In this document: positions 2,295-13,228 of the stretch, one piece after another | Layout: each line of letters opens with the position of its first letter | Numbering within the stretch: the first letter of the stretch is position 1 | DNA from: a virus | Length of the DNA: 20,058 bases | Virus record (IMG/VR): IMGVR_UViG_3300020200_000237 | Location: 1-20,058 of that record | Direction: 5' to 3' (one strand) | Made by a program: the position numbers and the translations under genes | Notes under the pieces: generated by a model | The model's input: the letters and a program-made list of their open reading frames with translations, nothing else | The model's database searches: none | What the model was told of the DNA's origin: nothing

Positions 2295-2474
2295 TCAGTT
2301 ATACCAATGCGCTAAGTTCGCAAGTTCAGATGCAATCTCTTCTACATTATCTTCAGTGAGTTGAGATAACAGTTGATCTACATCTTCATCAGGAACATAG
2401 AACAAATTACCATTGATTTCATCAGCGATTTGTTCTGCAAGGGAGAGGCAATCTTGTTGAAGTTGAGTTCTCAT
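2295..2474 (-). CDS. small acidic hypothetical protein, 59 aa
   Basis: I start it at ATG 2472-2474, which forms the end of a copy of the 42-bp element; a longer frame to the right would run into the preceding gene. The protein (MRTQLQQDCLSLAEQIADE...LANLAHWYN) looks all-helical with about twice as many acidic as basic residues over most of its length. Unknown function. Confidence 0.7.
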   Translation of the reverse strand: MRTQLQQDCLSLAEQIADEINGNLFYVPDEDVDQLLSQLTEDNVEEIASELANLAHWYN

Positions 2475-2513
2475 ACTACTAGGACACTTTGAAGGTGAGT
2501 AACTTTTATTCAG
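2472..2513 (-). repeat. 42-bp start-codon element, copy 1 (type b, degenerate)
   Basis: The start-proximal 19 bp match type b exactly and the distal TAACTTT-ATTCA is kept, but the central nine bases that hold GATC in the other copies are replaced by GAAGGTGAG. The last three bases on the minus strand are the ATG of the gene ending at 2295. The distal end overlaps the stop of the preceding gene (2510-2512). Confidence 0.75.
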
Positions 2514-2824
2514 TTCAAACGCATACCTGAGAAGAAGGGAATTGGAGCACCTTCGTATTGAATGAACCACTGACCATTCTTCTGAAAGACATACTCACCA
2601 TCGCAACCATGCACTTTCAGAATAGCATTAAGGCGCGACTTTGTGGTGTTTGATTGATAACCACCATCGAACAATTCAATCCAGGTTTCGCCTATACGAG
2701 CGATGAGATTGTTGTAGAGGTAGACATCAGAAACATTAGAATAAGTGATGACTTCAGTGTTATCCTTTTTCCAATCTTGTGATGCAGTGATTGCATCATT
2801 CATTTGGCGTTCGATGACTCGCAT
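2510..2824 (-). CDS. conserved cyanophage hypothetical protein, 104 aa
   Basis: ATG at 2822-2824, TGA at 2510-2512. An N-terminal charged helix (to about 22) precedes a segment reading YSNVSDVYLYNNLIARIGE and WIELFDGGYQSNTTKSRLNAIL, a pattern I associate with cyanophage hypothetical proteins, then a strand-rich end (GEYVFQKNGQWFIQYEG). Probably a small cytosolic alpha/beta protein. A 42-bp element lies about 30 nt upstream, but here its last triplet is ATA rather than ATG. Confidence 0.8.
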   Translation of the reverse strand: MRVIERQMNDAITASQDWKKDNTEVITYSNVSDVYLYNNLIARIGETWIELFDGGYQSNTTKSRLNAILKVHGCDGEYVFQKNGQWFIQYEGAPIPFFSGMRLN

Positions 2825-2852
2825 GGTTAGAGGTTTGGAGGTTTGTTGTGCT

Positions 2853-2890
2853 TATACTACTAGGACACTTTAGACGATCCTAACTTTAAT
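2853..2890 (-). repeat. 42-bp element, copy 2 (type b) with lost start codon
   Basis: It matches type b through the central GATC part to the AATTAAAG end, but a single C-to-T change at 2853 turns the terminal ATG into ATA. The downstream gene instead starts at 2824, in another frame. Its distal end overlaps the TAA of the gene at 2886-3026. Confidence 0.85.
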
Positions 2891-3026
2891 AGGAACTGAT
2901 TAGCGGTCCTTGAACATCACAAAACTCTAACAAAAAGTGGTCTAAAGTAATACCAAGACTCTTTGCTTCAGTGTTAAGTTGGTCGTATTGTTCCTGTGAA
3001 AGAATGTAAAAATCAGTCTCAATCAT
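2886..3026 (-). CDS. mini-protein, 46 aa
   Basis: ATG at 3024-3026, TAA at 2886-2888. It opens MIETDFYILSQEQYDQL and has a Leu-Phe-rich middle (LGITLDHFLLEFCDV). The start overlaps the end of the membrane protein before it by 8 nt, a coupling pattern that supports it being real. Function unknown. Confidence 0.7.
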   Translation of the reverse strand: MIETDFYILSQEQYDQLNTEAKSLGITLDHFLLEFCDVQGPLISSY

Positions 3027-3174
3027 GGGGTGTGATAATGTCTGCTACAGTGTGTAATGTGCTTGAGGTTGTGTTGCGAACTCCAGGTGAGAGTATAAAC
3101 GCAACGATGAAAATGAGGAGGATTGTCTTCACTTTATCAGGTGACTTGAAAGTAAGTCTTTTGGTTGATGCCAC
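3019..3174 (-). CDS. small membrane protein, 51 aa, GTG start
   Basis: The frame has no ATG; GTG at 3172-3174 is the natural start because an in-frame TAA, the stop of the previous gene, lies just 6 nt upstream. A basic N-terminus (KRLTFKSPDKVK) leads to one membrane helix (about residues 17-29, TILLIFIVAFILS), then SPGVRN and a polar C-terminus with ITPHD. I recognise the helix-SPGVR-then-polar-tail plan from small cyanophage membrane proteins. Probably in the host inner or thylakoid membrane; role unknown. GGTGGT upstream is a weak Shine-Dalgarno. Confidence 0.7.
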   Translation of the reverse strand: MASTKRLTFKSPDKVKTILLIFIVAFILSPGVRNTTSSTLHTVADIITPHD

Positions 3175-3177
3175 TAA

Positions 3178-3393
3178 TTAACCACCACCGTACACATATT
3201 CAACAATACCTGCTTCATCAAGTCCTACAGATTCGATGACAGTAAACCTGGCACAATTATCGAACTCATCAGCATGATATTCGCCAAACTCTTTGATAAA
3301 CAATTCGCGGCACTGTTCTTTAGTCTCAGCAGCAATCACTGCCATGCCAGAGGTATAATCAGAGAGGACGTTGTTGATGATAAACAGTTTCAT
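3178..3393 (-). CDS. conserved cyanophage hypothetical protein, 71 aa
   Basis: ATG at 3391-3393, TAA at 3178-3180. It begins MKLFIINNVLSDYTSGMAVI and ends VEYVYGGG, a small family I recognise from other marine cyanophages, of unknown role. It likely forms a beta-alpha-beta unit with the helix KEQCRELFIKEFG. The start is 3 nt after the stop of the gene before it and the next start is 6 nt after its stop. Confidence 0.8.
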   Translation of the reverse strand: MKLFIINNVLSDYTSGMAVIAAETKEQCRELFIKEFGEYHADEFDNCARFTVIESVGLDEAGIVEYVYGGG

Positions 3394-3396
3394 GAT

Positions 3397-3627
3397 TCAG
3401 TCGAAGCGAGAAGATACATCAGGACCAGGATTTTCAAGATGTGCTACACTTTCAGCAACACCTTCAGCAGTTAATGCAAACTGAACTTTTTTACCTTCGT
3501 GATAGATGTAAAACACAGATTGCACATAAGGTGTTAGATTGCCTTGCGAATCCCAGGCATTTCGTGTATGTGAAGTCTCAACGATTTCGTAGACTTTAGA
3601 GGTGAGAGGTGAAGTGTAAGTGCTCAT
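3397..3627 (-). CDS. hypothetical protein, 76 aa
   Basis: ATG at 3625-3627 is the last triplet of a 42-bp element; TGA at 3397-3399. The protein (MSTYTSPLTSKVYEIVE...) looks like a small beta-rich fold with strands around VYEIVE, VFYIYHEG and VQFALT, then a helix and a proline-containing tail. Nothing identifies an activity. Confidence 0.75.
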   Translation of the reverse strand: MSTYTSPLTSKVYEIVETSHTRNAWDSQGNLTPYVQSVFYIYHEGKKVQFALTAEGVAESVAHLENPGPDVSSRFD

Positions 3628-3666
3628 ACTATAGGTACAGTTTCGACGATCCTAACTTTAATTCAA
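3625..3666 (-). repeat. 42-bp start-codon element, copy 3 (type a)
   Basis: Full length, with one substitution (T to G on the minus strand) in the CTAAACTG part. It begins inside the last codons of the gene at 3658-3858 (its TAA is in the element) and ends with the ATG of the next gene, so it fills the entire junction. Confidence 0.9.
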
Positions 3667-3858
3667 AGTGATGTTCCAATCAATATCTGCATTAAGATTC
3701 ACCCAAAAGTGATTCTTACCGTTAGCAGAGGTTAGAAACACTTTGTTCCCTTGATGTTGCTCCACAATACATTCATTATTGCGATTCATTAAGTTACAGA
3801 AACGATTGTGTGCTTTCTTGCTTTTGGGTGTTACAAATGCAGTCAATTTAGAGTCCAT
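3658..3858 (-). CDS. hypothetical protein, 66 aa, paralogue of 16109-16312
   Basis: I start it at ATG 3856-3858 because this overlaps the previous stop by 11 nt, as elsewhere here, and because the paralogue starts at the same place. Shared features are the opening F-x-x-PKS-x-KA-x-NRF, a central Cys-x-VEQ and a closing FWV. It is basic in the first half and strand-rich in the second. No known domain; a small nucleic-acid-binding protein is possible but unproven. Confidence 0.75.
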   Translation of the reverse strand: MDSKLTAFVTPKSKKAHNRFCNLMNRNNECIVEQHQGNKVFLTSANGKNHFWVNLNADIDWNITLN

Positions 3859-4030
3859 TGATAAAGTCAGCAAGTGCTTCTTTGTATTCTGCTTCAGTCT
3901 CAAAGATGCGACCGTGAATGTTACGCGGATAGGTTACATTCTGCTTTCCAGCATCAGCAACCATGCGACAGTCAGATTCATCATAACCCATCTCAATCAG
4001 GTTTTGAACGTAAGGATTGTAGTGTGTCAT
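3848..4030 (-). CDS. hypothetical protein, 60 aa
   Basis: ATG at 4028-4030, TAA at 3848-3850. It reads as two helices joined by a polar loop (MTHYNPYVQNLIEMGYDESDC; then FETEAEYKEALADFINGL). Five nucleotides separate it from the stop before it and its end overlaps the next start by 11 nt. Product not recognised. Confidence 0.75.
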   Translation of the reverse strand: MTHYNPYVQNLIEMGYDESDCRMVADAGKQNVTYPRNIHGRIFETEAEYKEALADFINGL

Positions 4031-4035
4031 TTGTA

Positions 4036-4218
4036 TCAGTTACCGAAGAAAGCATCAAACTCATCAGCAACAAAATCAATCAATTCATCAGTTGCATCAA
4101 GGTCAAAAACGTTGCAGACAAAATCTACACAATCATTCAAATCTGTGTGATTGTTGCACATGAACTCCAGAAGTGCAGGAGTGATGTCGGTTTGGAAGTC
4201 AGGAGAAGTGTTGTTCAT
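4036..4218 (-). CDS. extremely acidic mini-protein with no Lys or Arg, 60 aa
   Basis: ATG at 4216-4218 ends a 42-bp element; TGA at 4036-4038. Eleven Asp and three Glu against no Lys and no Arg in 60 residues make this one of the most acidic proteins in the window. The middle and end (CVDFVCNVFDLDATDELIDF...) look helical with Phe and Val spaced for a core. Small, strongly acidic phage proteins sometimes mimic DNA and block host nucleases; that is only a hypothesis here. Its neighbour is a MutH-like nuclease. Confidence 0.8.
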   Translation of the reverse strand: MNNTSPDFQTDITPALLEFMCNNHTDLNDCVDFVCNVFDLDATDELIDFVADEFDAFFGN

Positions 4219-4257
4219 ACTACTAGGACACTTTAGACGATCCTAACTTTAATTCAA
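4216..4257 (-). repeat. 42-bp start-codon element, copy 4 (type b)
   Basis: Full-length copy with the central GATC. It begins at the end of the MutH-like gene (TAA at 4254-4256) and ends with the ATG of the acidic 60-aa protein. Confidence 0.9.
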
Positions 4258-4901
4258 AAGAGATTGCGACCGAATTGACCACACAAATAAAATGCCATTC
4301 CTTTGTTGTTGAATGTCACATCTGCAAAGGTCAAAGGTGTATAATCGTTACGCTTGGTTTTAGATGCTTTGGTGCGAATCTGAAGCAATTTGTTTGGACC
4401 TGTAATCGTGTGCGATGCTTTACCCTTACGATTCACAAATCCTAGTTGGTCAAGTTCAACACCTCGCTCAAATGCAGTGCGAATCTGTTCACAAATGAAC
4501 TCATAATCCTCACGCAATTCTTGATAATGTTCGGGATGAGTTTCTTCATTCAGAATCTCAGTTCCCACATAATCGTTGTTGCGACTAAAAGCAACATACA
4601 CAGTTTGCTTCAGTTTCTGTCCAACTTTGCTCTCATCAAATGATACTTGATCCTCGATGATTTCAGACAAACAGTGCTTCAACTGTGTGGCAGCAATAGA
4701 TTGTCCAACTGTAAAAGTCTTGATCTCTCCATCCTCCAAATCTTTGAGGTCGGAAGAGTTAGGAACTCCCAGCGCAAGTTCTAGTAACTGTCCGCGAGCA
4801 CCTTTGTTCTTGCCAGGTTTCTCATATACACTGAAATCAGTTACTTTCAGTTTGCCATAAACATCAAGCGTAGTCAGTTTCTGCATCGTGGTTGTGCTCA
4901 T
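4254..4901 (-). CDS. MutH/Sau3AI-family DNA endonuclease, 215 aa
   Basis: Likely nicks or cuts DNA; the family classically recognises GATC. It matches E. coli MutH block by block: KG-x2-GQLLE-LALG (33-45, catalytic Glu E41), D51/D54 then GEIK (58-61, with the E-x-K metal site E59/K61), KLKQTVYV, LREDYEFI, LLQIRTKA and a closing MAFYL-x3-F. Length fits MutH (229 aa). The D to E-x-K spacing is one residue off the classic D-x6-E-x-K, so the first Asp is uncertain. No MutS or MutL gene is in view, so it probably acts alone, for example on host DNA, in restriction of rival phage or in phage repair. The start codon is the last triplet of a 42-bp element which itself contains GATC. Confidence 0.8.
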   Translation of the reverse strand: MSTTTMQKLTTLDVYGKLKVTDFSVYEKPGKNKGARGQLLELALGVPNSSDLKDLEDGEIKTFTVGQSIAATQLKHCLSEIIEDQVSFDESKVGQKLKQTVYVAFSRNNDYVGTEILNEETHPEHYQELREDYEFICEQIRTAFERGVELDQLGFVNRKGKASHTITGPNKLLQIRTKASKTKRNDYTPLTFADVTFNNKGMAFYLCGQFGRNLF

Positions 4902-4940
4902 ACTATAGGTACAGTTTAGACGATCCTAACTTTAATTCAA
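4899..4940 (-). repeat. 42-bp start-codon element, copy 5 (type a)
   Basis: Full-length consensus copy, lying between the stop at 4946-4948 and the start of the MutH-like gene, whose ATG it supplies. Includes GATC. Confidence 0.9.
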
Positions 4941-4945
4941 ATGAA

Positions 4946-5164
4946 TTAGGACTCTTGTGTTACACTTTCAAGCAAATCATTCAACACCTCTTCATCATAC
5001 AATTCTTCAATCTCAGATAGAAGTTCTGCCTCCGTGTATTTGTTATACTCTGCAACTAGAGATTCGATGGCAAATGTGACAAGATCATCCATGTCCATAC
5101 CATCAATAACCATCTCTGCATAAGATTCAGTCAGAGCACAAAGTTGTTCGTTAGTAAGTGTCAT
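4946..5164 (-). CDS. acidic conserved cyanophage hypothetical protein, 72 aa
   Basis: ATG at 5162-5164 is chosen because cyanophage relatives I recall open MTLTxEQLxALxESYAEMVxDGMDM; a second in-frame ATG at 5192-5194 would add ten residues. About 20 acidic residues face a single Lys. The sequence is predicted all-helical, with a repeated E/D-L-L-E pattern in the second half. Function unknown. Confidence 0.8.
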   Translation of the reverse strand: MTLTNEQLCALTESYAEMVIDGMDMDDLVTFAIESLVAEYNKYTEAELLSEIEELYDEEVLNDLLESVTQES

Positions 5165-5199
5165 TTTGCTTGTGGGATTAGGAAGGGAAATCATTAGTT

Positions 5200-5379
5200 T
5201 TACTGAACTTTGAGTTGATGAACTTGAACGTCGCAGTATTCAGGAGATTTATAGTCTTCGTTGTATTCTAGTTTCATCTCCTCTGCGCGACGATTTGCGT
5301 CTTCTTCGTTAGCATACAAACCATAAAGTTCAGATGGTTCGTATTCATCAAGACGGGCAAAGATTCCGTAGACAATCAT
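5200..5379 (-). CDS. hypothetical protein, 59 aa
   Basis: ATG at 5377-5379, TAA at 5200-5202. It opens MIVYGIFARLDEYEPSELYGLY and has a helix ANEEDANRRAEEMKLEY, then a C-terminal strand (YCDVQVHQLKV). I recognise the strand-DEYE-LYG-helix plan from small cyanophage proteins of unknown role. The ATGA overlap with the gene before it supports both. Confidence 0.75.
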   Translation of the reverse strand: MIVYGIFARLDEYEPSELYGLYANEEDANRRAEEMKLEYNEDYKSPEYCDVQVHQLKVQ

Positions 5380-5585
5380 TTCAAAACAAGGCGATAATCA
5401 AGTGATTTGATACACCAACCGTAGGCAGTTGTAATCTCTTCGACTAGATCTTCTTCATCAGATGCTTCCCAGATTTGACCAAAGACTTCCTCATAAATCT
5501 CATCTTGTGACTCTACATCAAGTGCTTCATCATCAAGATCATCAGTGAAATCAAACTCAATTTGTAGAACTTGAAATTGCATCAT
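5376..5585 (-). CDS. very acidic hypothetical protein, 69 aa
   Basis: Two ATG codons in a row (5583-5585 and 5580-5582); the first makes an ATGA overlap with the gene before it. About 21 acidic residues against three basic, mostly in a central tract (FDFTDDLDDEALDVES and ASDEEDLVEEI). The edges look like strands (MQFQVLQIEF, SLDYRLVLK). Unknown; grouped here with the other acidic small proteins. Confidence 0.75.
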   Translation of the reverse strand: MMQFQVLQIEFDFTDDLDDEALDVESQDEIYEEVFGQIWEASDEEDLVEEITTAYGWCIKSLDYRLVLK

Positions 5586-5716
5586 TTGCAGTAGTTAGGG
5601 TCAATTTGGCAGAAGCGATCTGCTTGTTGTTCTTGATACTCATTCACAGTAGCATGAGCAGCAAGACCAACGCGAAGACCGAGGGCAAGTGTAGCAATCA
5701 AAAAAGCAATTCGCAT
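5582..5716 (-). CDS. small exported or membrane-anchored protein, 44 aa
   Basis: ATG at 5714-5716, TGA at 5582-5584. Residues 1-22 (MRIAFLIATLALGLRVGLAAHA) form a signal-peptide-like hydrophobic segment with small residues at the end; the mature part is about 22 polar residues with two Cys (DRFCQIDPNYCK). It could be a tiny periplasmic peptide or an uncleaved membrane peptide. ATGA coupling to the next gene. Confidence 0.7.
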   Translation of the reverse strand: MRIAFLIATLALGLRVGLAAHATVNEYQEQQADRFCQIDPNYCK

Positions 5717-5722
5717 TTCTAA

Positions 5723-5893
5723 TCAATCAACAACAGAGTAACAAGCAACCCAGGAAGGAATCCCAGAGAGTGATAATGAACCATTGCGGGCATCGCAATA
5801 GTCTTGTGCCTCATCTTCAGAGTAGAAAGGTCCAATATACTCTGGAGATTCCAGAGATTCAGACCAGAATCGGACGGTGAAAGTGTTGCTCAT
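5723..5893 (-). CDS. hypothetical protein, 56 aa
   Basis: The ATG (5891-5893) is the last triplet of a 42-bp element; TGA at 5723-5725. It begins MSNTFTVRFWSESLESPEY followed by a helix start (YSEDEAQDYCDARNG) and a strand-like end (SWVACYSVVD). The plan resembles the mini-protein at 2121-2255. No function assigned. Confidence 0.75.
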   Translation of the reverse strand: MSNTFTVRFWSESLESPEYIGPFYSEDEAQDYCDARNGSLSLSGIPSWVACYSVVD

Positions 5894-5929
5894 ACTATAG
5901 GTACAGTTTAGACGATCCTAACTTTAATT
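5891..5929 (-). repeat. 42-bp start-codon element, copy 6 (type a, 39 bp kept)
   Basis: Consensus through CTTTAATT, then diverging; the TAA of the gene at 5928-6071 touches its distal end. It supplies the ATG of the next gene and contains GATC. Confidence 0.9.
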
Positions 5930-6071
5930 ACTTGAAACTTACGTTGACTCCAACAACTTTTGCGGTAGGATTGCGAGCGAGTGCAGTTTCACGCGCATCT
6001 TTTGGGTTGGTTGCTTGTACTTCTTCTTTAAAGACTTTGCCGCCAACGTATAACTCAACGATGTACTTCAT
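5928..6071 (-). CDS. mini-protein, 47 aa
   Basis: ATG at 6069-6071, TAA at 5928-5930. MKYIVELYVGGKVFKEEV, then a helix (NPKDARETALAR) and a C-terminal strand (AKVVGVNVSF): a complete beta-alpha-beta mini-domain. Basic, unlike most neighbours. A large hairpin lies 30 nt upstream. Confidence 0.75.
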   Translation of the reverse strand: MKYIVELYVGGKVFKEEVQATNPKDARETALARNPTAKVVGVNVSFK

Positions 6072-6089
6072 GTGTTTGTTTGTATTTTG

Positions 6090-6146
6090 AAAAAAATTGA
6101 TAATTTCACTGCAGTGGATGACCTTTGCCCCGTGTGCAGTGAAATT
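6090..6146 (-). terminator. 12-bp perfect inverted repeat followed by T run (likely terminator)
   Basis: AATTTCACTGCA (6102-6113) and TGCAGTGAAATT (6135-6146) are exact inverted copies with a 21-nt loop. On the minus strand a run of seven T (6090-6096) follows after five bases, as in an intrinsic terminator, though stem-to-T spacing and loop are long. The left arm also makes the 10-bp palindrome CACTGCAGTG. It sits in a 137-nt gap after the gene ending at 6209. A protein operator is an alternative. Confidence 0.55.
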
Positions 6147-6208
6147 GCAGAAAAATCGGGTTTTTGATTGAGTGGTGGACAGGGTTCTCAGTGAGACTCA
6201 AGTGAGAA

Positions 6209-6403
6209 TCACAGGGTCTGCCAGTCTTGTGCCTCTTTGATGTTAGAATCAAAGAACTTTTGAATGATAGAATCAATCACAGGATACCATTCTTCGTTTG
6301 CACTTGGGTATCCACATTCTCGTGCTTGATTGAGAAACTTAAGGATGCAAGTTTCTTCATTAGCAGTGAACTTAACACGATTGAAAGTGTAACCGTCAGT
6401 CAT
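6209..6403 (-). CDS. hypothetical protein, 64 aa
   Basis: ATG at 6401-6403 shares one base with the stop before it (TGATG). The protein (MTDGYTFNRVKFTANEETCILKFL...) has a central helix pair and ends KEAQDWQTL. Function unknown. It is the last gene before the hairpin at 6102-6146. Confidence 0.7.
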   Translation of the reverse strand: MTDGYTFNRVKFTANEETCILKFLNQARECGYPSANEEWYPVIDSIIQKFFDSNIKEAQDWQTL

Positions 6404-6564
6404 CAATCATCTCCAAAGTTGTTTACAAGGAAGTCTTCAAGTTCGCAAAGTTCCACCTCATCCAAGGAGGAAATGTAGTTGTGCAAAGTATCTACTAAGA
6501 CACCATTATTCTTTTGGCAGGTTTCATACAGAAACTCAAAAAGTTGTGTTTTGTTAGTCATCAT
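6403..6564 (-). CDS. acidic hypothetical protein, 53 aa
   Basis: Two adjacent ATG codons (6562-6564, 6559-6561); the first gives a TGATG junction with the previous stop. Predicted all helix, with an acidic Leu-rich run (SSLDEVELCELEDFLVNNFGDD) and only two Lys. TGATG again joins it to the next gene. Not recognised. Confidence 0.7.
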   Translation of the reverse strand: MMTNKTQLFEFLYETCQKNNGVLVDTLHNYISSLDEVELCELEDFLVNNFGDD

Positions 6565-6839
6565 CAGTTCACCGATTCTTGGTAGATTGACATACCCTTA
6601 CGCATAGAAATGTAATCACCAATCATCTCACCAACCTGTTCGTAAATGTAGGAAGAACCACCTACATCACAGAGCACATCTTCGGTGAGTTGTTTAGAAA
6701 AATGCACTTCATTATCGTTAGCATCGAACTCAAAAACATCCTCTCCAGTGTATATAAACGCAGCACAAGCAGCGTTCTCACCTTGACTCTCAATCAGTTG
6801 GTCGATTGAATCACGAAGTTCGGAAAGTGTGCGGAACAT
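6564..6839 (-). CDS. acidic hypothetical protein, 91 aa
   Basis: ATG at 6837-6839 (MFRTLSELRDSIDQLIESQG) is two bases after the previous stop in the recurring TGATTATG junction, so the TTG further upstream is not needed. A helix comes first, then strand-like FIYTGEDVFEF and EVHFSK, then an acidic helix with DVLCDVGGSSYIYEQVGE. Unknown function. Confidence 0.75.
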   Translation of the reverse strand: MFRTLSELRDSIDQLIESQGENAACAAFIYTGEDVFEFDANDNEVHFSKQLTEDVLCDVGGSSYIYEQVGEMIGDYISMRKGMSIYQESVN

Positions 6840-6841
6840 AA

Positions 6842-7009
6842 TCAAACAGGGGTAACTTCTACAGAACGGATAAGATTGGTGCGGTCTTGTGCTAGGTAAT
6901 CATCAGCGATTTTGCCACAAGATGAACGAGACTGAATGAACTTTTCTTCATATAGGTTCTCATCTTCGTCAGGAACCCAATACTCAATCAGAAGGCGATA
7001 GTTGTTCAT
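6842..7009 (-). CDS. small hypothetical protein, 55 aa
   Basis: ATG at 7007-7009 in a TGATTATG junction. MNNYRLLIEYWVPDEDE shares its YWVP block with the 76-aa protein at 11415-11645 (VDYWVPFPSSE); both continue with an acidic stretch and a V-rich C-terminal strand, so they are probably distant paralogues. A longer frame upstream would read through the preceding gene. Confidence 0.7.
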   Translation of the reverse strand: MNNYRLLIEYWVPDEDENLYEEKFIQSRSSCGKIADDYLAQDRTNLIRSVEVTPV

Positions 7010-7011
7010 AA

Positions 7012-7179
7012 TCAGCAACCGAAATCGACAGGAATAGATAACCAAATGGCACGATCCGTACCGATTGTAAATTGATTGTCCCAGATAAAATGCGTTGCTT
7101 CCTGATTACTCAGATTGCAATGATCCATCAGGTGATTGACTGCTTCCTTGAAAGATGTAAAGCGGAGAGTGTTGTTCAT
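7012..7179 (-). CDS. small hypothetical protein, 55 aa
   Basis: ATG at 7177-7179, again two bases past a stop (TGATTATG), and the first codons spell MNN as in the next gene. It has a helical N-terminal half (FTSFKEAVNHLMDHCNLSNQEATHFIW) and a strand-like end (RAIWLSIPVDF). Function unknown. Confidence 0.7.
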   Translation of the reverse strand: MNNTLRFTSFKEAVNHLMDHCNLSNQEATHFIWDNQFTIGTDRAIWLSIPVDFGC

Positions 7180-7181
7180 AA

Positions 7182-7421
7182 TCAGTACAGGGGGCAGAAA
7201 GAACCACAGAAACGACGAACCCATTGCAAAGTTTCATAATGAGAACGAGGGTGAGACATTACCATGCTTTTGTTAGTTTCAGGGTTGAGAGCAATAGCAA
7301 CGTATTTGTGGTCACATTCTTGCCATTCAGGTGTAACTTGCTGAATGAACATTTGACGCACAATACCTTCTTTCCAGTTGGTAGTGTAGTGAAAGACTTG
7401 ATCCATGGTAGTGTTGCTCAT
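7182..7421 (-). CDS. hypothetical protein, 79 aa
   Basis: Starts at the ATG (7419-7421) that ends a 42-bp element; TGA at 7182-7184. The sequence reads as a strand-rich fold (VFHYTTNW, IVRQMFIQQV, KYVAIALN) with many aromatic residues and a C-terminal WVRRFCGSFC containing two Cys. Not recognised. Confidence 0.75.
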   Translation of the reverse strand: MSNTTMDQVFHYTTNWKEGIVRQMFIQQVTPEWQECDHKYVAIALNPETNKSMVMSHPRSHYETLQWVRRFCGSFCPLY

Positions 7422-7460
7422 ACTATAGGTACAGTTTAGACGATCCTAACTTTAATTCAA
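7419..7460 (-). repeat. 42-bp start-codon element, copy 7 (type a)
   Basis: Full consensus copy, identical to that at 4899-4940 over all 42 bp. It supplies the ATG of the 79-aa protein and contains GATC; 10 nt separate it from the preceding stop. Confidence 0.9.
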
Positions 7461-7470
7461 AAGGATTGAC

Positions 7471-7725
7471 TTACCAAATACCTCTTTGAATGTAGATTTT
7501 GCGGACTTCCTGATGCAGAAAATGTCGAAGTTTAGGGTCGGTAGTGTTATCAAAAGCAAGATACAATCGTTTCAGGTATTCATCTTGTGTGGCACCTATG
7601 TTACCATCACCACCGATGTCATTGAGTGATGAACCTGCGACAACTTTGCTCTTGCCGAAGTTACCAGACACACGCCCAGTTGTTCTCAGTTTAGGACGAA
7701 TCTTTGAGAGGTTAGAGTAAGTCAT
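7471..7725 (-). CDS. basic hypothetical protein, 84 aa
   Basis: ATG at 7723-7725, TAA at 7471-7473. The first half is basic, Gly-Ser-rich and probably unstructured (SKIRPKLRTTGRVSGNFGKS); the second half is helical (EYLKRLYLAFDN, LRHFLHQEVRKIYIQRG). Its pI contrasts with the acidic neighbours, so nucleic-acid contact is possible. ATGA overlap with the zinc-ribbon gene. Confidence 0.75.
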   Translation of the reverse strand: MTYSNLSKIRPKLRTTGRVSGNFGKSKVVAGSSLNDIGGDGNIGATQDEYLKRLYLAFDNTTDPKLRHFLHQEVRKIYIQRGIW

Positions 7726-7922
7726 CGGGGAAACTTGTGGTTACAATCAGGGCACACCCAATGATTGATACGATCTTCACCAAGCAATTCAATACCAATC
7801 ACACGACTATAAAAATAGGGTGGAGAATAGTTTTCCCAGTATTCTTGTGGAATCAGTTTTTCAACCCAATTTGCACCACATTCGGGACAATTTTCAAGTT
7901 TTGTGATGTCAGTGTAAGTCAT
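7722..7922 (-). CDS. zinc-ribbon protein, 66 aa
   Basis: ATG at 7920-7922 (MTYTDITKLENCPEC); in-frame sequence further right has no usable ATG or GTG before the previous gene. Two CxxC knuckles (C12/C15 and C57/C60) 41 residues apart make a zinc-ribbon, with an aromatic, Pro-rich insert (YWENYSPPYFYS) between. Such small phage proteins often bind nucleic acid or RNA polymerase, but no partner can be named. A 62-nt gap upstream holds only a 12-codon frame ending in an ATGA overlap with this start. Confidence 0.75.
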   Translation of the reverse strand: MTYTDITKLENCPECGANWVEKLIPQEYWENYSPPYFYSRVIGIELLGEDRINHWVCPDCNHKFPR

Positions 7923-7984
7923 CGTGCAATAATGTCCAGAGTTTCCAATAGCATCATAGAAAGTTCCAACTGACTGAGAGTGAG

Positions 7985-8422
7985 TTATTTGTATAAATAC
8001 CCCCCGCTCCAATCTGCATGTTCCAGCAGGTATTCACGATCAGCAATCAATCGCAGGTCATAACGAACACCTTTGGCAGGAGACTTCCATGATGCAGTTT
8101 TATACACTTCGCCAGTGTTCTTGTCAATGAAAGCATGAGCAGAGCGTTGTCCACCACCATCAACAAAAATGATTTTGTGATACTTTTTACCAGTCTCGAT
8201 GGTATAATCAATGTCGCACTTACCAGACTTGAGTTCATCAATCTTGCGCTGATGATAACCAGGAACTGCATCAAATCGCTCAACAGAACGCTGATGAGAA
8301 CGAATCGAGTGTTGACGATAGTTGTCTTTCAATGCTTCAATCAGCAGCAGAGTATTCTTGAGAACATTCTCTGCGATGGTTTGTTGTGCTTGTGCTTGCA
8401 TGGTAGGAGTGCTCATCGGCAT
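7985..8422 (-). CDS. conserved phage protein of unknown function, 145 aa
   Basis: ATG at 8420-8422; an alternative ATG two codons on (MSTPTMQAQAQQ) is plausible. An N-terminal helical part (to about 60) precedes a conserved C-terminal block reading RSAHAFIDKNTGEVYKTASW then KSPAKGVRYDL and the end ADWSGGYLYK. I recognise this block from many tailed-phage hypothetical proteins. Likely a small beta fold that contacts nucleic acid or a partner protein. Driven by the promoter at 8440-8445, giving a leader of only about 11 nt. Confidence 0.8.
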   Translation of the reverse strand: MPMSTPTMQAQAQQTIAENVLKNTLLLIEALKDNYRQHSIRSHQRSVERFDAVPGYHQRKIDELKSGKCDIDYTIETGKKYHKIIFVDGGGQRSAHAFIDKNTGEVYKTASWKSPAKGVRYDLRLIADREYLLEHADWSGGYLYK

Positions 8423-8439
8423 CTGTTGCGTATGTAAGT

Positions 8440-8485
8440 ATTATAGGGGAAGCACTGCCTCGCTACGGGTCCGTTGTGCCAGTTT
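8440..8485 (-). promoter_or_regulatory. TATAAT promoter with upstream AAACTGGCACAA box
   Basis: TATAAT (8440-8445, minus) has no good -35, but 28 nt upstream lies AAACTGGCACAA (8474-8485), shared with three other promoters here. The box also forms the 3' arm of a GTGCCA/TGGCAC inverted repeat with a 10-nt loop. The whole element lies inside the last codons of the methyltransferase gene, and the -10 includes its stop codon. Confidence 0.65.
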
Positions 8486-9013
8486 GGAAGGTGGCACACT
8501 CAACTCCTCCATAATGATTTGTTTTGGTAGAAAGTTCCAGCAATAGTAACTGCTGCTGAATGTAATCTTGTCGTTTGGTCTACCATCAGGGCTATGAAAC
8601 TTCATCCGCTTATCAAACATTAGTAGTTGCAGATCCTTATCCTTGAACAACTGCTTAGGAGCACTATCATTCAACCAAGTGTTAGTCATAATGAGAGCAA
8701 ATGGTTTCTCAAATGATAATGCTCGCTCGAAGAACTTGCGCTTGTTTGTAAATGGTGGATTAGATACGATTACATCCCAGTTGTCAGGTTCATAGGTGAG
8801 AAAGTCTTGATTATAATTGATATGAGTAAAGACTACCTCATTCTGCTTACTAATCTGTTTGACAAACTCACTATCAATCGTATCAAATGGACACCAAACA
8901 ACTGCATCTTTAGGGATGTATTTGAGAATTGGAGTTACACCGTAAAACGGAGTGTAACATTCGTCATTGTTACCCTCAGAAAACATCAGTTTTCCACTAT
9001 CAAGTTGTTTCAT
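8441..9013 (-). CDS. phage-type adenine DNA methyltransferase-like protein, 190 aa
   Basis: Predicted to transfer a methyl group from SAM, most likely to adenine N6 in DNA. Visible motifs are the opening CYTPFYGVTPIL (substrate/SAM entry), VVWCPFD (40-44, SAM-binding-loop region) and NPPF (85-88), the catalytic motif IV of amino-methyltransferases. The layout matches a phage family with the CPFDT and ISNPPF motifs. Start ATG 9011-9013 overlaps the deformylase stop by 14 nt. The last 15 or so residues overlap a promoter and may not be conserved. The target sequence cannot be read; GATC is a hypothesis. A non-DNA substrate remains possible. Confidence 0.7.
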   Translation of the reverse strand: MKQLDSGKLMFSEGNNDECYTPFYGVTPILKYIPKDAVVWCPFDTIDSEFVKQISKQNEVVFTHINYNQDFLTYEPDNWDVIVSNPPFTNKRKFFERALSFEKPFALIMTNTWLNDSAPKQLFKDKDLQLLMFDKRMKFHSPDGRPNDKITFSSSYYCWNFLPKQIIMEELSVPPSKLAQRTRSEAVLPL

Positions 9014-9431
9014 CAGTCATTAATATCCCATCAAGATGATCAATTTCGTGTTGTATAATCCTTGCGGTCAAGCCTCTGTGTGTCTCTAAATGTGGATGTC
9101 CAGCAAGGTTGCGATATTTAATTGTGATTGAACTATACCTATTCTTTTTGATGAATGTCTCAGGGATACTCAAACATCCCTCTTCATCCATTTCAGTTTC
9201 TTCAGAATGAAATATAATTTCTGGATTGATAAGAACTTTGATTGATTGATTATCGGTGATTACAATGATACGCTTGTTAATACCACATTGTGGAGCAGAA
9301 AGTCCTACACCATTGTTTTTAACCATTAGGTCAACAAGTGCTGCACAAGTGGTACGAACAGTATCGTCTATTTTATCAATCCGCTTGCTCTTTACTCTTA
9401 GAGCTTTGTGTCCCTCCGTCAGTATTTCCAT
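9000..9431 (-). CDS. def: peptide deformylase, 143 aa
   Basis: Removes the formyl group from the N-terminal Met of new proteins; a metal hydrolase in the cytosol. All three family motifs are present: GVGLSAPQ (41-48, motif 1), EGCLSIP (84-90, metal ligand C86) and HEIDHLDG (128-135, ligands H128 and H132, catalytic E129). At 143 aa it is shorter than bacterial enzymes (about 170), lacking the C-terminal helix, as is usual for cyanophage versions. Phage deformylases of this type are known in marine cyanophages and are thought to favour photosystem D1-like N-termini, helping keep photosynthesis running. The first 56 nt overlap the preceding gene; the end overlaps the methyltransferase by 14 nt. 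Confidence 0.95.
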   Translation of the reverse strand: MEILTEGHKALRVKSKRIDKIDDTVRTTCAALVDLMVKNNGVGLSAPQCGINKRIIVITDNQSIKVLINPEIIFHSEETEMDEEGCLSIPETFIKKNRYSSITIKYRNLAGHPHLETHRGLTARIIQHEIDHLDGILMTDETT

Positions 9432-9528
9432 AGGAGTTGTGCAGATTCTTTATATAGTTGGCAATTTGTTGAGTTTCATCCCATTCCCAAATTGTACCAT
9501 CTTTTTGTGTGTAAGTTCTTACAGTCAT
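9376..9528 (-). CDS. mini-protein, 50 aa, overlapping deformylase
   Basis: ATG at 9526-9528 forms an ATGA overlap with the previous stop, the main support for this gene; TGA at 9376-9378. MTVRTYTQKDGTIWEWDET begins with a strand and is followed by a short helix (QQIANYIKNLHNSYG). The C-terminal 18 residues lie over the deformylase N-terminus in another frame, an overlap of 56 nt that is long for this window. Function unknown. Confidence 0.55.
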   Translation of the reverse strand: MTVRTYTQKDGTIWEWDETQQIANYIKNLHNSYGNTDGGTQSSKSKEQAD

Positions 9529-9737
9529 ACTTTTTCAAAATGTACAGAATTAAATCTACCAGATATACCTTGAAGTGTCAACTTTGTATGCCAGGTATGC
9601 ACATCGACACGTTCTACAATGTAATGAGTGTTTAAAGTAAGAATGTCCCTAGGATCGTTGTTACCAGCACCCCAGTGAACTTGTTCATCTATTGCACCAA
9701 TGTATGCAACAGTATCTCCTACTCTAAAACGTTCCAT
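9525..9737 (-). CDS. small beta-barrel-like hypothetical protein, 70 aa
   Basis: ATG at 9735-9737. MERFRVGDTVAYIGAIDEQ, then DPRDILTLNTHYIVERV and KLTLQGISGRFNSVHFEKV: the order 'F-x-GD-x-V', 'Y-x-V-x-x-V', 'L-x-G' and final 'F' is typical of KOW/SH3-like small barrels found as phage hypothetical proteins. Such folds often bind nucleic acid. No catalytic residues. Confidence 0.75.
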   Translation of the reverse strand: MERFRVGDTVAYIGAIDEQVHWGAGNNDPRDILTLNTHYIVERVDVHTWHTKLTLQGISGRFNSVHFEKV

Positions 9738-9751
9738 TTTTTTTAAATTAG

Positions 9752-10009
9752 TTAGAGTTTATAGTTATCCTTTGTAGAATAAGTTTTAGAGTCAGGCCAT
9801 CCTTCCTGCTGTCCTTTCAAATAGAACCTTGTTGCTCGTACACATTCTTCCTCATTCAGTGCTGTAATGATGCACTTACCATCTTTATCGTATGAATCCC
9901 ACAACCCATACTTTTTCTCTTCAACATAGAAACAATCGTCAATCATTTCTCGGTTTTGTTTTGTATTTTTTGATTCCAATTGCTGTTGTTCCTTTAAGTT
10001 TTTTGACAT
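9752..10009 (-). CDS. hypothetical protein, 85 aa
   Basis: ATG at 10007-10009 chosen because farther in-frame starts lie deep in the gene before it. The N-terminus is polar and unstructured (MSKNLKEQQQLESKNTKQN); from about 25 a compact domain follows (CFYVEEKKYGLWDSYDKDG and EECVRATRFYLKGQQEGW) that I associate with cyanophage hypothetical proteins. The first 71 nt overlap the end of 9939-10154. Confidence 0.65.
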   Translation of the reverse strand: MSKNLKEQQQLESKNTKQNREMIDDCFYVEEKKYGLWDSYDKDGKCIITALNEEECVRATRFYLKGQQEGWPDSKTYSTKDNYKL

Positions 10010-10154
10010 AGTTTTCTCTGTAATCATCATATGGAAAGTATGCATTATGCTGTAGTTTTCTTTTACCATCCTTTACGAACCATTCTAATGCAAAAGGAAA
10101 TACTTTATGAAATGGTTGTACTTCTGGTTGTGGATCAATTCTTTTTGAAATCAT
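9939..10154 (-). CDS. basic hypothetical protein, 71 aa
   Basis: ATG at 10152-10154 makes an ATGA overlap with the stop before it. MISKRIDPQPEVQPF leads to an aromatic stretch (FPFALEWFVKDGKRK and YFPYDDYRENYVKK) and a Lys-rich tail. The last 24 codons are also read as the start of the next gene, so the tail may be a recent read-through extension. Unrecognised. Confidence 0.6.
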   Translation of the reverse strand: MISKRIDPQPEVQPFHKVFPFALEWFVKDGKRKLQHNAYFPYDDYRENYVKKLKGTTAIGIKKYKTKPRND

Positions 10155-10360
10155 TTGACTCTTTCAACATTTGAGTAGTCTATGTCATTCCAATGTCTAA
10201 TTACACCCGCAACAATAAAACAGTTTGTAATCAGATAGGTTGCAAAGATGATAGTTCTTACAATTGAAATGATGTCTGCTTCTTTATCATTCTTCCCGTG
10301 TTTTTCACCAAGCGAATAAGACCAGAGTCTCCATATTGTCCTGTGTTTTTTATTCTTCAT
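10151..10360 (-). CDS. small integral membrane protein, 69 aa
   Basis: ATG at 10358-10360. A conserved cytosolic-type N-terminus (MKNKKHRTIWRLWSYSLGEK) and charged KNDKEAD precede one membrane helix at about 36-54 (TIIFATYLITNCFIVAGVI), then a polar tail. The RTIWRLW-ALGEK-then-helix plan is one I recognise from T4-like cyanophages; role unknown. Its start overlaps the zinc-finger gene by 11 nt. Confidence 0.8.
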   Translation of the reverse strand: MKNKKHRTIWRLWSYSLGEKHGKNDKEADIISIVRTIIFATYLITNCFIVAGVIRHWNDIDYSNVERVK

Positions 10361-10535
10361 CCTTTTTCTTGAAGACTTTTTTGTCGCATTCATTACAATA
10401 TGTAGAGTATCCGTATTTGAAGTTCTTGACTGCTTGAAAATACTCAGAAGTCAAAGGTTTTACTTCATCACACGCTTGGCACTGGTATTCACTTGGGCGT
10501 GACAATGATTTCTTTTGCCCCAACACTCTTGACAT
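10350..10535 (-). CDS. small zinc-finger protein, 61 aa
   Basis: ATG at 10533-10535. Two CxxC pairs (C19/C22 and C47/C50) frame KPLTSEYF and a GYSTYC turn, the layout of small treble-clef-like fingers also found at the front of HNH-type proteins; no HNH catalytic residues follow. The end is Lys-rich. Could bind DNA. It overlaps the preceding gene by 47 nt, and no Met lies nearer the finger. Confidence 0.7.
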   Translation of the reverse strand: MSRVLGQKKSLSRPSEYQCQACDEVKPLTSEYFQAVKNFKYGYSTYCNECDKKVFKKKDEE

Positions 10536-10635
10536 AAGACTGCCAGGCAAATGCATCATCAAGTTTGAAAAAGACCGCAGACTGTTTAGCATAACCTCTT
10601 TGCTTTGGCTTTAGATATGATACTTCATATTTCAT
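10489..10635 (-). CDS. mini-protein, 48 aa
   Basis: ATG at 10633-10635 in an ATGA overlap; TGA at 10489-10491. MKYEVSYLKPKQRGYAKQSAVFF, a helix (LDDAFAWQSYVKSVG) and a closing strand (AKEIIVTPK) form a beta-beta-alpha-beta pattern resembling the mini-protein at 5928-6071. Basic. Function unknown. Confidence 0.7.
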   Translation of the reverse strand: MKYEVSYLKPKQRGYAKQSAVFFKLDDAFAWQSYVKSVGAKEIIVTPK

Positions 10636-10808
10636 TTTTCTTCAAGCGATGTGATCAGATGAAACTCAAAGGTAGGAACAACAACACGTACATCTTTTGA
10701 TCTGTGTTTACCTTTATGCACAAGAATTGAAATTGATTGTTCACTTACAAAGGCAATTGCGCCAGTAACGTGCTTGTAAGACACTGTAGTTCCTTCAACA
10801 AATACCAC
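10632..10808 (-). CDS. conserved cyanophage hypothetical protein, 58 aa, GTG start
   Basis: The GTG at 10806-10808 must be the start: an in-frame TGA is immediately upstream, and a strong GGAGG Shine-Dalgarno (10815-10819) sits 6 nt before it. MVFVEGTTVSYKHVTGAIAFV, then EQSISILVHKG and KDVRVVVPTFEF: a small all-beta fold with the 'G-x-I-x-F-V' strand I recall from cyanophage hypothetical proteins. Overlaps the previous gene by 14 nt. Confidence 0.8.
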   Translation of the reverse strand: MVFVEGTTVSYKHVTGAIAFVSEQSISILVHKGKHRSKDVRVVVPTFEFHLITSLEEK

Positions 10809-10986
10809 TCAGATCCTCCATAAAAATGTATTCTTCAGGTTCTTCACCATCTACAACAAACTCAAGATATAGCGCATCAGAGTCGTCAATACGATCATCA
10901 GACACTAAAACACACATTCTCTCACTCCAATAAGCATCAAGCTCATCAAGTGATTGCTCTCGGATTTCGTTAATAAAGTCATTCAT
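10795..10986 (-). CDS. very acidic hypothetical protein, 63 aa
   Basis: ATG at 10984-10986 (MNDFINEIREQSLDELDAYW) overlaps the previous stop as ATGA, so the TTG three codons upstream is not needed. About 20 acidic against three basic residues. Helix, then strands (MCVLVSD, LYLEFVVDG) and EEPEEYIFMEDL. Its last codons hold the Shine-Dalgarno for the next gene. Unknown role. Confidence 0.75.
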   Translation of the reverse strand: MNDFINEIREQSLDELDAYWSERMCVLVSDDRIDDSDALYLEFVVDGEEPEEYIFMEDLSGIC

Positions 10987-11276
10987 TGGAAACAAGCCTC
11001 AAGTGGTGTCAATTTGGGTTTCATTGATGAGTATGGTGTAGTGTCTCTAATGTCTACTACACTACCAACTGTCTTTGCATTGATTGGAGCGTGGTAGGAT
11101 TTTGTTTTTGTATTCCAGAATCCCCAGATAGAACGTACAGGAGACCCGTTGTTATAATCAAAACGGTAATGATTGCGGATCCATATTCCAACAACATTCC
11201 GTTTGAATTCTTCAAATTCATAACTGTATCCTTTAGGAGCAGTGTGAGGAAACTCAAAGGTCGTCAAGGCGTTCAT
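10983..11276 (-). CDS. conserved cyanophage protein of unknown function, 97 aa
   Basis: ATG at 11274-11276. The sequence PHTAPKGYSYEFEEFKRNV, then VGIWIRNHYRFDYNNG, VRSIWGFWNTKTK and APINAKTVGSVVDI is a block I recognise from several marine T4-like cyanophages. Beta-rich, aromatic, no catalytic motif. Length is typical of the family. It overlaps its upstream neighbour by 23 nt and the next by ATGA. Confidence 0.85.
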   Translation of the reverse strand: MNALTTFEFPHTAPKGYSYEFEEFKRNVVGIWIRNHYRFDYNNGSPVRSIWGFWNTKTKSYHAPINAKTVGSVVDIRDTTPYSSMKPKLTPLEACFQ

Positions 11277-11412
11277 CGAATTCTTTAATAATTCTAATCT
11301 CTTCTTGGAGAGACTCAATCATTCGATACAATTCTTCAATTTTATCTTGATGCATTTTTTTGAGATTTGTCAGCATATTGCCAGCGTGTTGAACGTTAGG
11401 TTGAGAACTCAT
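11254..11412 (-). CDS. small coiled-coil protein, 52 aa
   Basis: ATG at 11410-11412 in a TGATTATG junction; TGA at 11254-11256. From about residue 14 to 48 the heptad pattern LTNLKKMHQDKIEELY and MIESLQEEIRIIKEFD is that of a single coiled coil. Probably oligomeric or a partner-binding peptide. Confidence 0.7.
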   Translation of the reverse strand: MSSQPNVQHAGNMLTNLKKMHQDKIEELYRMIESLQEEIRIIKEFDERLDDL

Positions 11413-11414
11413 AA

Positions 11415-11645
11415 TCAGGTCGTAAAAGATTCAACAATACGGGATTCTTCTTCATCCACAAGAGCAAAGCGAGGGGCAGCAACTACGCGCTCCATAATTT
11501 TACTCTCATATCGGTCATCATAGTCATCTGAGTCTCTCAAAATATCGTGACACTCAACATCATTTTCAGAAATGACATTGATTACGCCACCATACTCAGA
11601 AGAGGGAAAAGGAACCCAGTAGTCAACGATGTACAGATATTTCAT
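11415..11645 (-). CDS. conserved cyanophage hypothetical protein, 76 aa
   Basis: ATG at 11643-11645. MKYLYIVDYWVPFPSSEYGG, then GVINVISENDVEC and a C-terminal ALVDEEESRIVESFTT: I recognise the YWVPFPSSEYGG family from cyanophages, of unknown function. The 55-aa protein at 6842-7009 shares the YWVP block. Confidence 0.8.
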   Translation of the reverse strand: MKYLYIVDYWVPFPSSEYGGVINVISENDVECHDILRDSDDYDDRYESKIMERVVAAPRFALVDEEESRIVESFTT

Positions 11646-11658
11646 TTGTTTTTGTAAA

Positions 11659-11829
11659 TTACTCCTTGATTTTAGCAGTGTATTGGAAATTGGTCAACTG
11701 TCTTTGAAGTTCGCAACGAACTGAAATGAGGCGTCCATAAAGAAACTTTTGATACTCATTGTCCTCCAACAAGTTGGTAAGGTTGTCAACTTGCATCAGT
11801 GCAAAGATTAGTTTGGTTTGTTGGTCCAT
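11659..11829 (-). CDS. helical hypothetical protein, 56 aa
   Basis: ATG at 11827-11829, TAA at 11659-11661. MDQQTKLIFALMQVDNLTNLL, then NEYQKFLYGRLI and CELQRQLTNFQY: nearly all helical, amphipathic, a small family I recall from cyanophages. Overlaps the preceding gene by 22 nt. Confidence 0.75.
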   Translation of the reverse strand: MDQQTKLIFALMQVDNLTNLLEDNEYQKFLYGRLISVRCELQRQLTNFQYTAKIKE

Positions 11830-11933
11830 TTTGCCTCATCTCTTGGATGAATAACTTTGTAATAATATGTAAGTAGCAGAGAAACAAGTGCTACCAACAT
11901 AAGGTAGATAAAGATTCCGACTGCTAATGTCAT
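11808..11933 (-). CDS. small membrane protein, 41 aa
   Basis: ATG at 11931-11933 in an ATGA overlap. Residues about 3-23 (LAVGIFIYLMLVALVSLLLTY) are a single membrane helix, followed by a short polar tail (KVIHPRDEAKW). Function unknown. Confidence 0.65.
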   Translation of the reverse strand: MTLAVGIFIYLMLVALVSLLLTYYYKVIHPRDEAKWTNKPN

Positions 11934-12088
11934 TTGATTTCAATACTTGGAGGTTTCTTTAGGTTCTCCATTGCTTGTTGACGATAGTGTGCTTTATACA
12001 TTGCATCATCACGCTGGATTAGAAAGACATTCCATCCAAGAATTGCAATAAGAGCGAAAAAGATGTAAGAAATGTGCCTACTGTTCAC
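11930..12088 (-). CDS. small membrane protein, 52 aa, GTG start
   Basis: GTG at 12086-12088 with a GAGG site 7 nt before it. Residues about 7-24 (SYIFFALIAILGWNVFLI) form one membrane helix, then a basic-polar tail (QRDDAMYKAHYRQQAM). I recall the 'ILGWN-FLIQRD' block from cyanophages. It overlaps the previous gene by 11 nt and couples to the next membrane protein. Confidence 0.75.
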   Translation of the reverse strand: MNSRHISYIFFALIAILGWNVFLIQRDDAMYKAHYRQQAMENLKKPPSIEIK

Positions 12089-12233
12089 GGATTACCCTCA
12101 GGCGATTTGGATTGTAACCTTCATTGATAAGAGATTCAATACGCTCAGTTGCTTGCGGCTTTGTCAGTTTAGATGCAATAGGAGTCCATCCAACGGTGCA
12201 AAATTCTTCAATTGTGTAAAGATCTTCTGTCAT
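12078..12233 (-). CDS. conserved cyanophage hypothetical protein, 51 aa
   Basis: ATG at 12231-12233, TAG at 12078-12080, a rare amber stop here. MTEDLYTIEEFCTVGWTPI, then KLTKPQATERIESLINEG and YNPNRLRVIRE. The end resembles a small helix-turn-helix-like unit. I recognise this short family in cyanophages; its role is unknown. Confidence 0.75.
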   Translation of the reverse strand: MTEDLYTIEEFCTVGWTPIASKLTKPQATERIESLINEGYNPNRLRVIREQ

Positions 12234-12643: not shown

Positions 12644-12668
12644 TGGGGCGTCTGTCGATTACTCATAT

Positions 12669-12723
12669 ATTATAAGGGGTCCCCAGTGCCCTGAGATCCC
12701 CCCGTGTGCCAGTTTGAGAACTG
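12669..12723 (-). promoter_or_regulatory. TATAAT promoter with upstream AAACTGGCACAC box and palindrome
   Basis: TATAAT at 12669-12674 (minus), box AAACTGGCACAC at 12704-12715, 29 nt apart. The box overlaps the inverted repeat CAGTT-TGAG-AACTG (12710-12723). Between box and -10 is a G/C-rich stretch with GGGG and CCCC runs. No consensus -35. Drives the 12230-12643 gene. Confidence 0.65.
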
Positions 12724-12725
12724 TC

Positions 12726-13163: not shown

Positions 13164-13184
13164 TTTGTGTGAGACTATTTTTAT

Positions 13185-13213: not shown

Positions 13214-13221
13214 CTTCTCCT
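13193..13221 (-). terminator. intrinsic terminator
   Basis: A 7-bp perfect stem AGGAGAA/TTCTCCT with an 11-nt loop, followed by a further run of four T on the minus strand. It lies 8 nt past the stop of the gene at 13229-13408. Confidence 0.8.
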
Positions 13222-13228
13222 GTGCCAC

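Follow-up and report, generated by a model that had tools for sequence, protein, structure and literature searches.

Why should the gaps between unrelated phage genes hold copies of one short sequence that ends in the ATG of the gene that follows? The question is raised by a 20,058-nucleotide stretch of viral DNA (IMG/VR record IMGVR_UViG_3300020200_000237, positions 1 to 20,058; hereafter the window), in which a 42-bp element occurs seven times. Two issues are central to an answer: (i) whether the ATG carried by the element is really used in translation; and (ii) what kind of signal the element is, and where its RNA would begin. We argue that the ATG behaves as a genuine start codon, and we favor, with a probability of roughly 55%, a phage-specific and probably early promoter whose RNA starts at or near that triplet, yielding a leaderless or nearly leaderless mRNA.

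The window comes from a T4-like, Kyanoviridae-like cyanophage, as judged from its gene content (the Kyanoviridae-specific family PF23790, peptide deformylase, 2OG-Fe(II) oxygenase and a phage helicase, among others) and from its blastn relatives, almost all of which are Synechococcus or Prochlorococcus myoviruses.

Anatomy and distribution of the element

All seven copies lie on the minus strand, at 2471-2512, 2852-2893, 3624-3665, 4215-4256, 4898-4939, 5890-5931 and 7418-7459, and shuffled sequence gives essentially none. The 19-mer AAACTGTACCTATAGTATG is present four times against 0.00 in 100 shuffles, and GTTAGGATCGTCTAAA, with up to three mismatches, six times against 0.25 in the control; the repeat is real, and chance would yield none. 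As a preliminary description of the window had stated, the last three bases of six copies are exactly the ATG of an open reading frame (ORF), at 7421, 5893, 4901, 4218, 3627 and 2474, and the proteins that adjoin the copies are unrelated to one another; no copy has a Shine-Dalgarno sequence. In the seventh copy, 2852-2893, ATA takes the place of ATG and the gene begins 31 nt downstream, at 2824. In the direction of the genes, the sequence of the majority copy is AAGTTAGGATCGTCT-AAACTGTACCTATAGT-ATGAGC. The two sub-types described next to the ATG are also present, ACCTATAGT in four copies and CCTAGTAGT in three; across all copies examined they differ by a one-base shift of a CCTA block that leaves the overall spacing unchanged. 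The distal 23 bp had been described as common to both sub-types, and this does not hold for copy 2471-2512, whose upstream half is GTTACTCACCTTC, in contrast to GTTAGGATCGTC(T/G) in the remaining six. The GTTACTCACCTTC half is typical of other phages, which suggests that this copy, the only one in the window with a foreign half, was imported together with its gene from another phage lineage.

The preliminary description had counted absence from other phages among the findings that would speak against a conserved signal; the element is in fact abundant in them. The exact core GTACCTATAGTATGAG is found in 62 stretches of IMG/VR contigs (a few being chance matches without the flanking motif), and broader core patterns had at least 120 matches listed each. 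A set of regular expressions recovered 1,039 unique copies, and when 5.4 Mb were scanned with position weights, 1,220 matches stood out clearly, with a nearly empty gap between signal and background. The total of related copies is thus about 1,040 to 1,220, and nearly all belong to viral contigs of IMG/VR; the cultured carriers are S-SM2 and SynMITS9220M01, and one single-cell marine virus also has the element. The whole genome of phage Syn9 has no match to the core, and phage P-TIM68 has one mismatched match. A genome may contain up to 14 core copies, on one strand and in one block, with control hits of 0-1. The block is about 18 kb long in five of the records searched, and in S-SM2 and SynMITS9220M01 it begins upstream of the helicase gene and ends a short way ahead of the gene that encodes baseplate wedge protein gp25. 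When a 16-base-equivalent pattern was searched in 84,980 bacterial and archaeal species (257 Gb), there were 25 scattered single matches and none in a cyanobacterium, and a host promoter is therefore ruled out.

With the A of the ATG numbered +1, the element has three parts: a genome-specific half (-31 to -17), a universal core, AAASYGTNNNNNTAGT, and a triplet RTR, which is ATG, GTA or ATA. A leave-one-position-out conservation profile over the 1,220 copies shows near-invariance upstream (C-21, 99%; AAA at -16 to -14, 100%; T-12, 96%; G-11, 100%; T-10, 97%) and close to the triplet (T-4, 98%; A-3, 95%; G-2, 89%; T-1, 99%; purine at +1, 100%; T+2, 95%), with A+4 at 85%, and the near-invariant positions are the same in ATG and non-ATG copies. 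The profile contains no Shine-Dalgarno sequence in the core. The hexamer before the triplet is TATAGT in 683 copies, AGTAGT in 146 and TATAAT in 29. The stop codon of the upstream gene falls mostly at -39 to -30, and the element therefore occupies the whole intergenic space. Stop codons are present in two frames of the core, one at -4 (TAG or TAA) in every copy, as the search pattern required, and one at +2 (TAA, TAG or TGA) in 84-98% of copies; they may be a by-product of the consensus.

The upstream half behaves very differently from the core. Its versions include GGATCGTC, GGATCCTC, CTCACCTC, GGGGCCTT, GGGCCCCT, GGGACGT and others, and it tracks the genome rather than the gene: the difference is 0.134 between different genes of one contig, 0.530 between copies of the same gene in different contigs and 0.540 between random pairs. 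Such a pattern suggests a recognition factor that is not the same in every phage, either encoded by the phage or carried in the virion. The copies of one genome could also be kept alike by gene conversion, or by recombination at the core that they share.

Recombination was also put forward in the preliminary description in a stronger form, in which the repeats are mainly homology modules for swapping gene cassettes between phages. The element does join unrelated genes, the foreign half at 2471-2512 shows that import of such elements is possible, and the repeated promoter-early stem-loop (PeSL) cassettes of T4-type phages offer a precedent (PMC4503421). A comparison of neighbors gave this view no support, however: neighbor conservation is 0.232 across an element and 0.234 where there is none, and a recombination junction in this sense is disfavored. 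Recombination also has no need for constraint at single positions, for a core of fixed spacing or for the dependence of the ATG on reading frame that is described below. We regard this explanation as highly improbable.

The ATG of the element as a start codon

The triplet that follows TATAGT was ATG in 356, GTA in 218 and ATA in 139 of a first set of 750 copies, and ATG is present in 466 of the 1,039 copies of the larger set. Whether it is ATG depends on the reading frame of the gene that follows. For genes with a native ATG 13-30 nt downstream of the element, the triplet is ATG in 242 of 409 cases (59%) when the two are in frame, and in only 12 of 244 (4.9%) when they are out of frame (p = 4e-50); after collapse to gene families the odds ratio is 9.8 (p = 1e-12). 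Between the element and the gene's own in-frame ATG, none of 251 ATG copies has an in-frame stop codon, against 30 of 200 non-ATG copies.

In addition, 172 copies precede genes with no other start. These ATG-only copies occur in 25 gene families, spread over 111 loci, and the genes belong to intact families (e.g., MKNTHLEHPED and FTVRF) with relatives in other phages that begin at a native ATG, at least 15 nt from the element. Both layouts, an element at offset 0 and one at an offset of at least 14, are found in 19 families, depending on the phage; offsets of gene starts overall are either 0 or at least 14, and hardly ever between. In codons 2-5 after the ATG, third positions vary most in ATG copies and not in non-ATG copies, a periodicity that gives weak support because the sequence pairs are not independent. 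Together, the frame dependence, the lack of intervening stops, the ATG-only copies and the codon periodicity show that ribosomes see the ATG of the element, and it behaves as a real start codon. It is an AUG without a Shine-Dalgarno sequence, as in leaderless mRNAs. Initiation on leaderless messages requires AUG, and the near-absence of GTG as a start would be expected on that account: GTG fits the RTR consensus, yet it is found in 14 copies and is a clear start in none.

A start codon at a strictly fixed position raises the possibility that the element acts in RNA only, as a translation-initiation or RNA-processing site such as a RegA operator or an RNase site, and a pure translation-start signal was among the proposals of the preliminary description. 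In T4, RegA is a translational repressor that binds the start region of early mRNAs, and each of the four element-bearing genomes tested has a gene for RegA. The majority of copies, however, have no ATG and lie at a variable distance, at least 14 nt, upstream of the gene. Because these copies keep the same core, conserved identically, together with the genome-specific half, a pure translation signal is disfavored; the genome-specific half, moreover, behaves as a DNA site might. The copies of the window also lack an RNA fold: they fold no better than shuffled sequences (z = -0.46 to 1.80), an Rfam search of the window had no match, and secondary structure was accordingly rejected as the common signal. 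An element that works in RNA alone seems to us decidedly unlikely.

Where the RNA would begin

We suggest instead that the element is a promoter, reused many times within one block of the genome and spanning the interval from the stop codon of a gene to the following start. The half from -31 to -17 would probably be read by a phage factor, and RNA would most likely start at the RTR or within a few bases of it. Where the RTR is ATG, it would serve as the start codon of a leaderless or nearly leaderless message, and where it is GTA or ATA, translation would begin at the gene's own ATG, at least 14 nt downstream. In some genes both ATGs, at offsets 0 and 15, may be used; others have lost the original one and rely on the donated ATG. 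The location of the element among small unknown genes of the variable region fits an early class of promoter.

The sequence evidence places the ATG very probably inside the element's own transcript. The scarcity of gene starts at offsets from 1 to 13 would be expected if RNA begins near 0 and leaders shorter than about 14 nt are not tolerated. A second line of evidence comes from strong leader hairpins in a minority of non-ATG copies, at loci designated L256, L119, L322, L148 and L191, in which the 5′ arm runs from +1. Examples are GTGAGGA-CACA-TCCTCAC (L256) and GTGAGAG-GA-CTCTCAC (L322); in L119, an ortholog of L256, the hairpin is GGGAGGA-CACTGC-TCCTCCC, with a double change at +2 from T.A in L256 to G.C. 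There are 10 strong hairpins that pair +1 and +2, where shuffles give 0.35, and with a weaker cut-off those pairing +5 and +6 number 25, against 2.5; pairing at +1/+2 is not enriched once the energy cut-off is loose (20 against 19). Within one hairpin family there was a single varying pair and no double change, too small a sample to count. Pairing extends to -1 in 16 of 20 hairpins and is at background level at -2, a hint that the RNA begins about there. Flush hairpins at +1 may stabilize mRNA, and they could be a separate regulatory feature.

The preliminary description had already proposed a promoter with leaderless or nearly leaderless RNA, with TATAGT as its -10 hexamer. We retain the outline of that proposal and not the assignment of the hexamer, because an ordinary -10 at TATAGT would put the RNA start about 7 nt on, past the ATG, and is incompatible with a leaderless message. 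The assignment does lead to an alternative in its own right: a host sigma-70-type promoter of the ordinary kind, in which the -10 is TATAGT (or TAGTRT) and the place of the -35 is taken by a phage activator site in the variable half. RNA would then start about 7 nt on, in codon 3, and the ATG would be used only on read-through transcripts. Several observations agree with this scheme and weigh against the leaderless promoter that we favor. The hexamer is TATAAT-like, as a sigma-70 promoter calls for, TATAGT being one base from TATAAT, which itself occurs among the copies, and a CA step lies at textbook distance, at +6/+7, so that a start at +7 is what an ordinary -10 predicts. The elements closely follow the upstream stop codon, read-through from upstream promoters is likely, and such transcripts could also expose the ATG to ribosomes. 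Tolerance of an ATG at -2 that is out of frame, as seen in the related element of P-TIM68, would agree with RNA that starts later in that phage. Finally, the hairpin evidence is limited to non-ATG copies and a few dozen sequences. Against these points, a start at +7 would leave the 172 ATG-only genes without a start codon on the adjoining transcript, untranslatable from the promoter that touches them. Leader hairpins that pair +1/+2 or +5/+6 are, moreover, much more frequent than chance would give, and these two findings make a start at +7 disfavored. Such a start would also leave the shortest leaders with only some 8 nt, and G occupies the second hexamer position in about 20% of copies. On balance we consider an ordinary sigma-70 promoter unlikely.

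Two other placements of the start were considered. A -10 at NAAAGT, with the RNA start at -5, would explain the data and was dropped, since the S-SM2 copies carry a C where that hexamer would end in T. Alternatively, the element could be a promoter for a single-subunit (T7/SP6-like) phage RNA polymerase, with the start at the G of TATAG. The core GTGTCCCTATAG does resemble the promoters of SP6 (GTGACACTATAG) and T7 (GACTCACTATAG), and the reach of hairpin pairing to -1 and not to -2 would agree with such a start. The TATAAT variants, however, lack the G, and the polymerase family PF00940 was found in none of nine records searched (including S-SM2, SynMITS9220M01 and five large contigs), while the positive control, P-SSP7, was detected at 2.7e-69. 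A promoter of this type is therefore rejected.

Related repeats and the genes of the window

Repeated phage promoter cassettes are already known, and the probable novelty of the present element lies in the donation of a start codon and the probably leaderless output. Doron et al. are said to have described in 2016, in phage Syn9, an early-gene regulatory element upstream of variable-region genes that is conserved among T4-like cyanophages. That element and the present one are alike in being repeated, phage-specific and located upstream of variable-region genes, but the motif is not the same: Syn9 lacks the present core and has its own repeats, GTGTATTCTATAAGAGTCAAAGG, followed by a leader with a Shine-Dalgarno sequence and then ATG, and start-codon donation was not seen. 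In the equivalent region of S-RIM8, DSL-LC02 and Syn9 there is a third type of intergenic repeat, in which GTGTATTCTATAAGAGTCAAAGG is followed by ATG. P-TIM68 has 12-13 copies of the intergenic repeat GTTAGTTACCTCTAAATTGAYNTANTAATG at 7407-16377. These resemble the present element in layout, region and a similar upstream half, and gene starts are often 15 nt after TAAT; they differ in having another core and always a leader, several with the Shine-Dalgarno sequence AAGGA, and none of 13 copies donates a start codon.

More distant parallels exist among other phages. The T4 middle promoters, which consist of a MotA box and a -10, likewise have a phage-specific box upstream of a TATAAT-like hexamer, but the box of the present element varies from phage to phage; no match to MotA was found in four element-bearing records, in a search that lacked a working positive control. 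The PeSL cassettes are repeated between small genes of variable regions (PMC4503421), as is the present element, and combine an early promoter with a stem-loop; the window copies have no stem-loop, and no excess shuffling was found at elements. In cluster K mycobacteriophages, the SAS/ESAS repeats comprise a 13-bp GGGATAGGAGCCC-like sequence with AGGAG, 3-7 bp before the start codon (PMC3203893). They too are tied to the starts, mostly ATG, of unrelated non-structural genes, in one orientation, and are absent from the host, and their extended upstream part differs by subcluster much as the variable half does here (PMC3203893). The present element, in contrast, has a different sequence, lacks AGGAG and has zero spacing, ending in the ATG itself, and it does not belong with SAS.

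The genes served in the window, all on the minus strand, illustrate the range of arrangements (element coordinates here cover -31 to +3). Four elements are of the TATAGT type. The one at 7419..7452, with its ATG at 7421 and a second in-frame ATG at offset 15, opens an ORF of 79 aa (MSNTTMDQVFHY..., 7182..7421) from a family (family 3) that starts at a native M2 in some phages and has only the first ATG in others. The element at 4899..4932 (ATG at 4901) also has a second in-frame ATG at offset 15 and precedes an ORF of 215 aa (MSTTTMQKLTTLDV..., phrog_15364, 4254..4901). No second start is present after the elements at 5891..5924 (ATG at 5893; 56 aa, MSNTFTVRFW..., phrog_28075, gene family 8, 5723..5893) and 3625..3658 (ATG at 3627; 76 aa, MSTYTSPLTSKVYE..., 3397..3627). 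The remaining three are of the AGTAGT sub-type. Those at 4216..4249 (ATG at 4218; 60 aa, MNNTSPDFQTDITP..., phrog_10297, gene family 14, 4036..4218) and, with the foreign upstream half, 2472..2505 (ATG at 2474; 59 aa, MRTQLQQDCLSL..., 2295..2474) again have no second start. The ATA copy, at 2853..2886, is followed by a leader and does not overlap the start codon of its gene, which encodes Kyano_Gp96 (PF23790; 104 aa, 2510..2824).

Two other features of the window may be mentioned. The gene at 7985-8422 has extra N-terminal codons (ATGAGCACTCCTACC before the native ATG), as is typical of element-bearing relatives, yet lacks the element, instead of which a TATAAT-like site and a leader are found upstream. 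At 351-471, a short way upstream of a plus-strand gene for a GIY-YIG homing endonuclease (614-1642), two tandem 33-bp copies of CAGCACATTTATAACGACATAAGCAAAAGGCAT are followed by two 23-bp copies of TCAGCACATTATAAAGGTTTTAG with the same 33-bp spacing.

Finally, we consider what the element could mean for this group of phages. It is possible, as a tentative generalization, that dozens of small takeover genes are expressed on leaderless mRNAs in one clade of T4-like cyanophages, from a promoter unlike that of sigma-70, with the RNA start at or just before the start codon and a phage-specific upstream half that co-evolves with a phage factor. The genome-specific half would then point to an undiscovered phage transcription factor. 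If this account is correct, more than 100 natural phage genes would have as their only start codon one supplied by a promoter, and the element would show a route by which a gene that has captured the start codon of a promoter can lose the one it had. Leaderless messages, a class known mostly from single cases, would be in regular use among phage genes in hosts of the Gram-negative type, and such promoters, together with corrected start codons, could be predicted directly in metagenomic cyanophage genomes.

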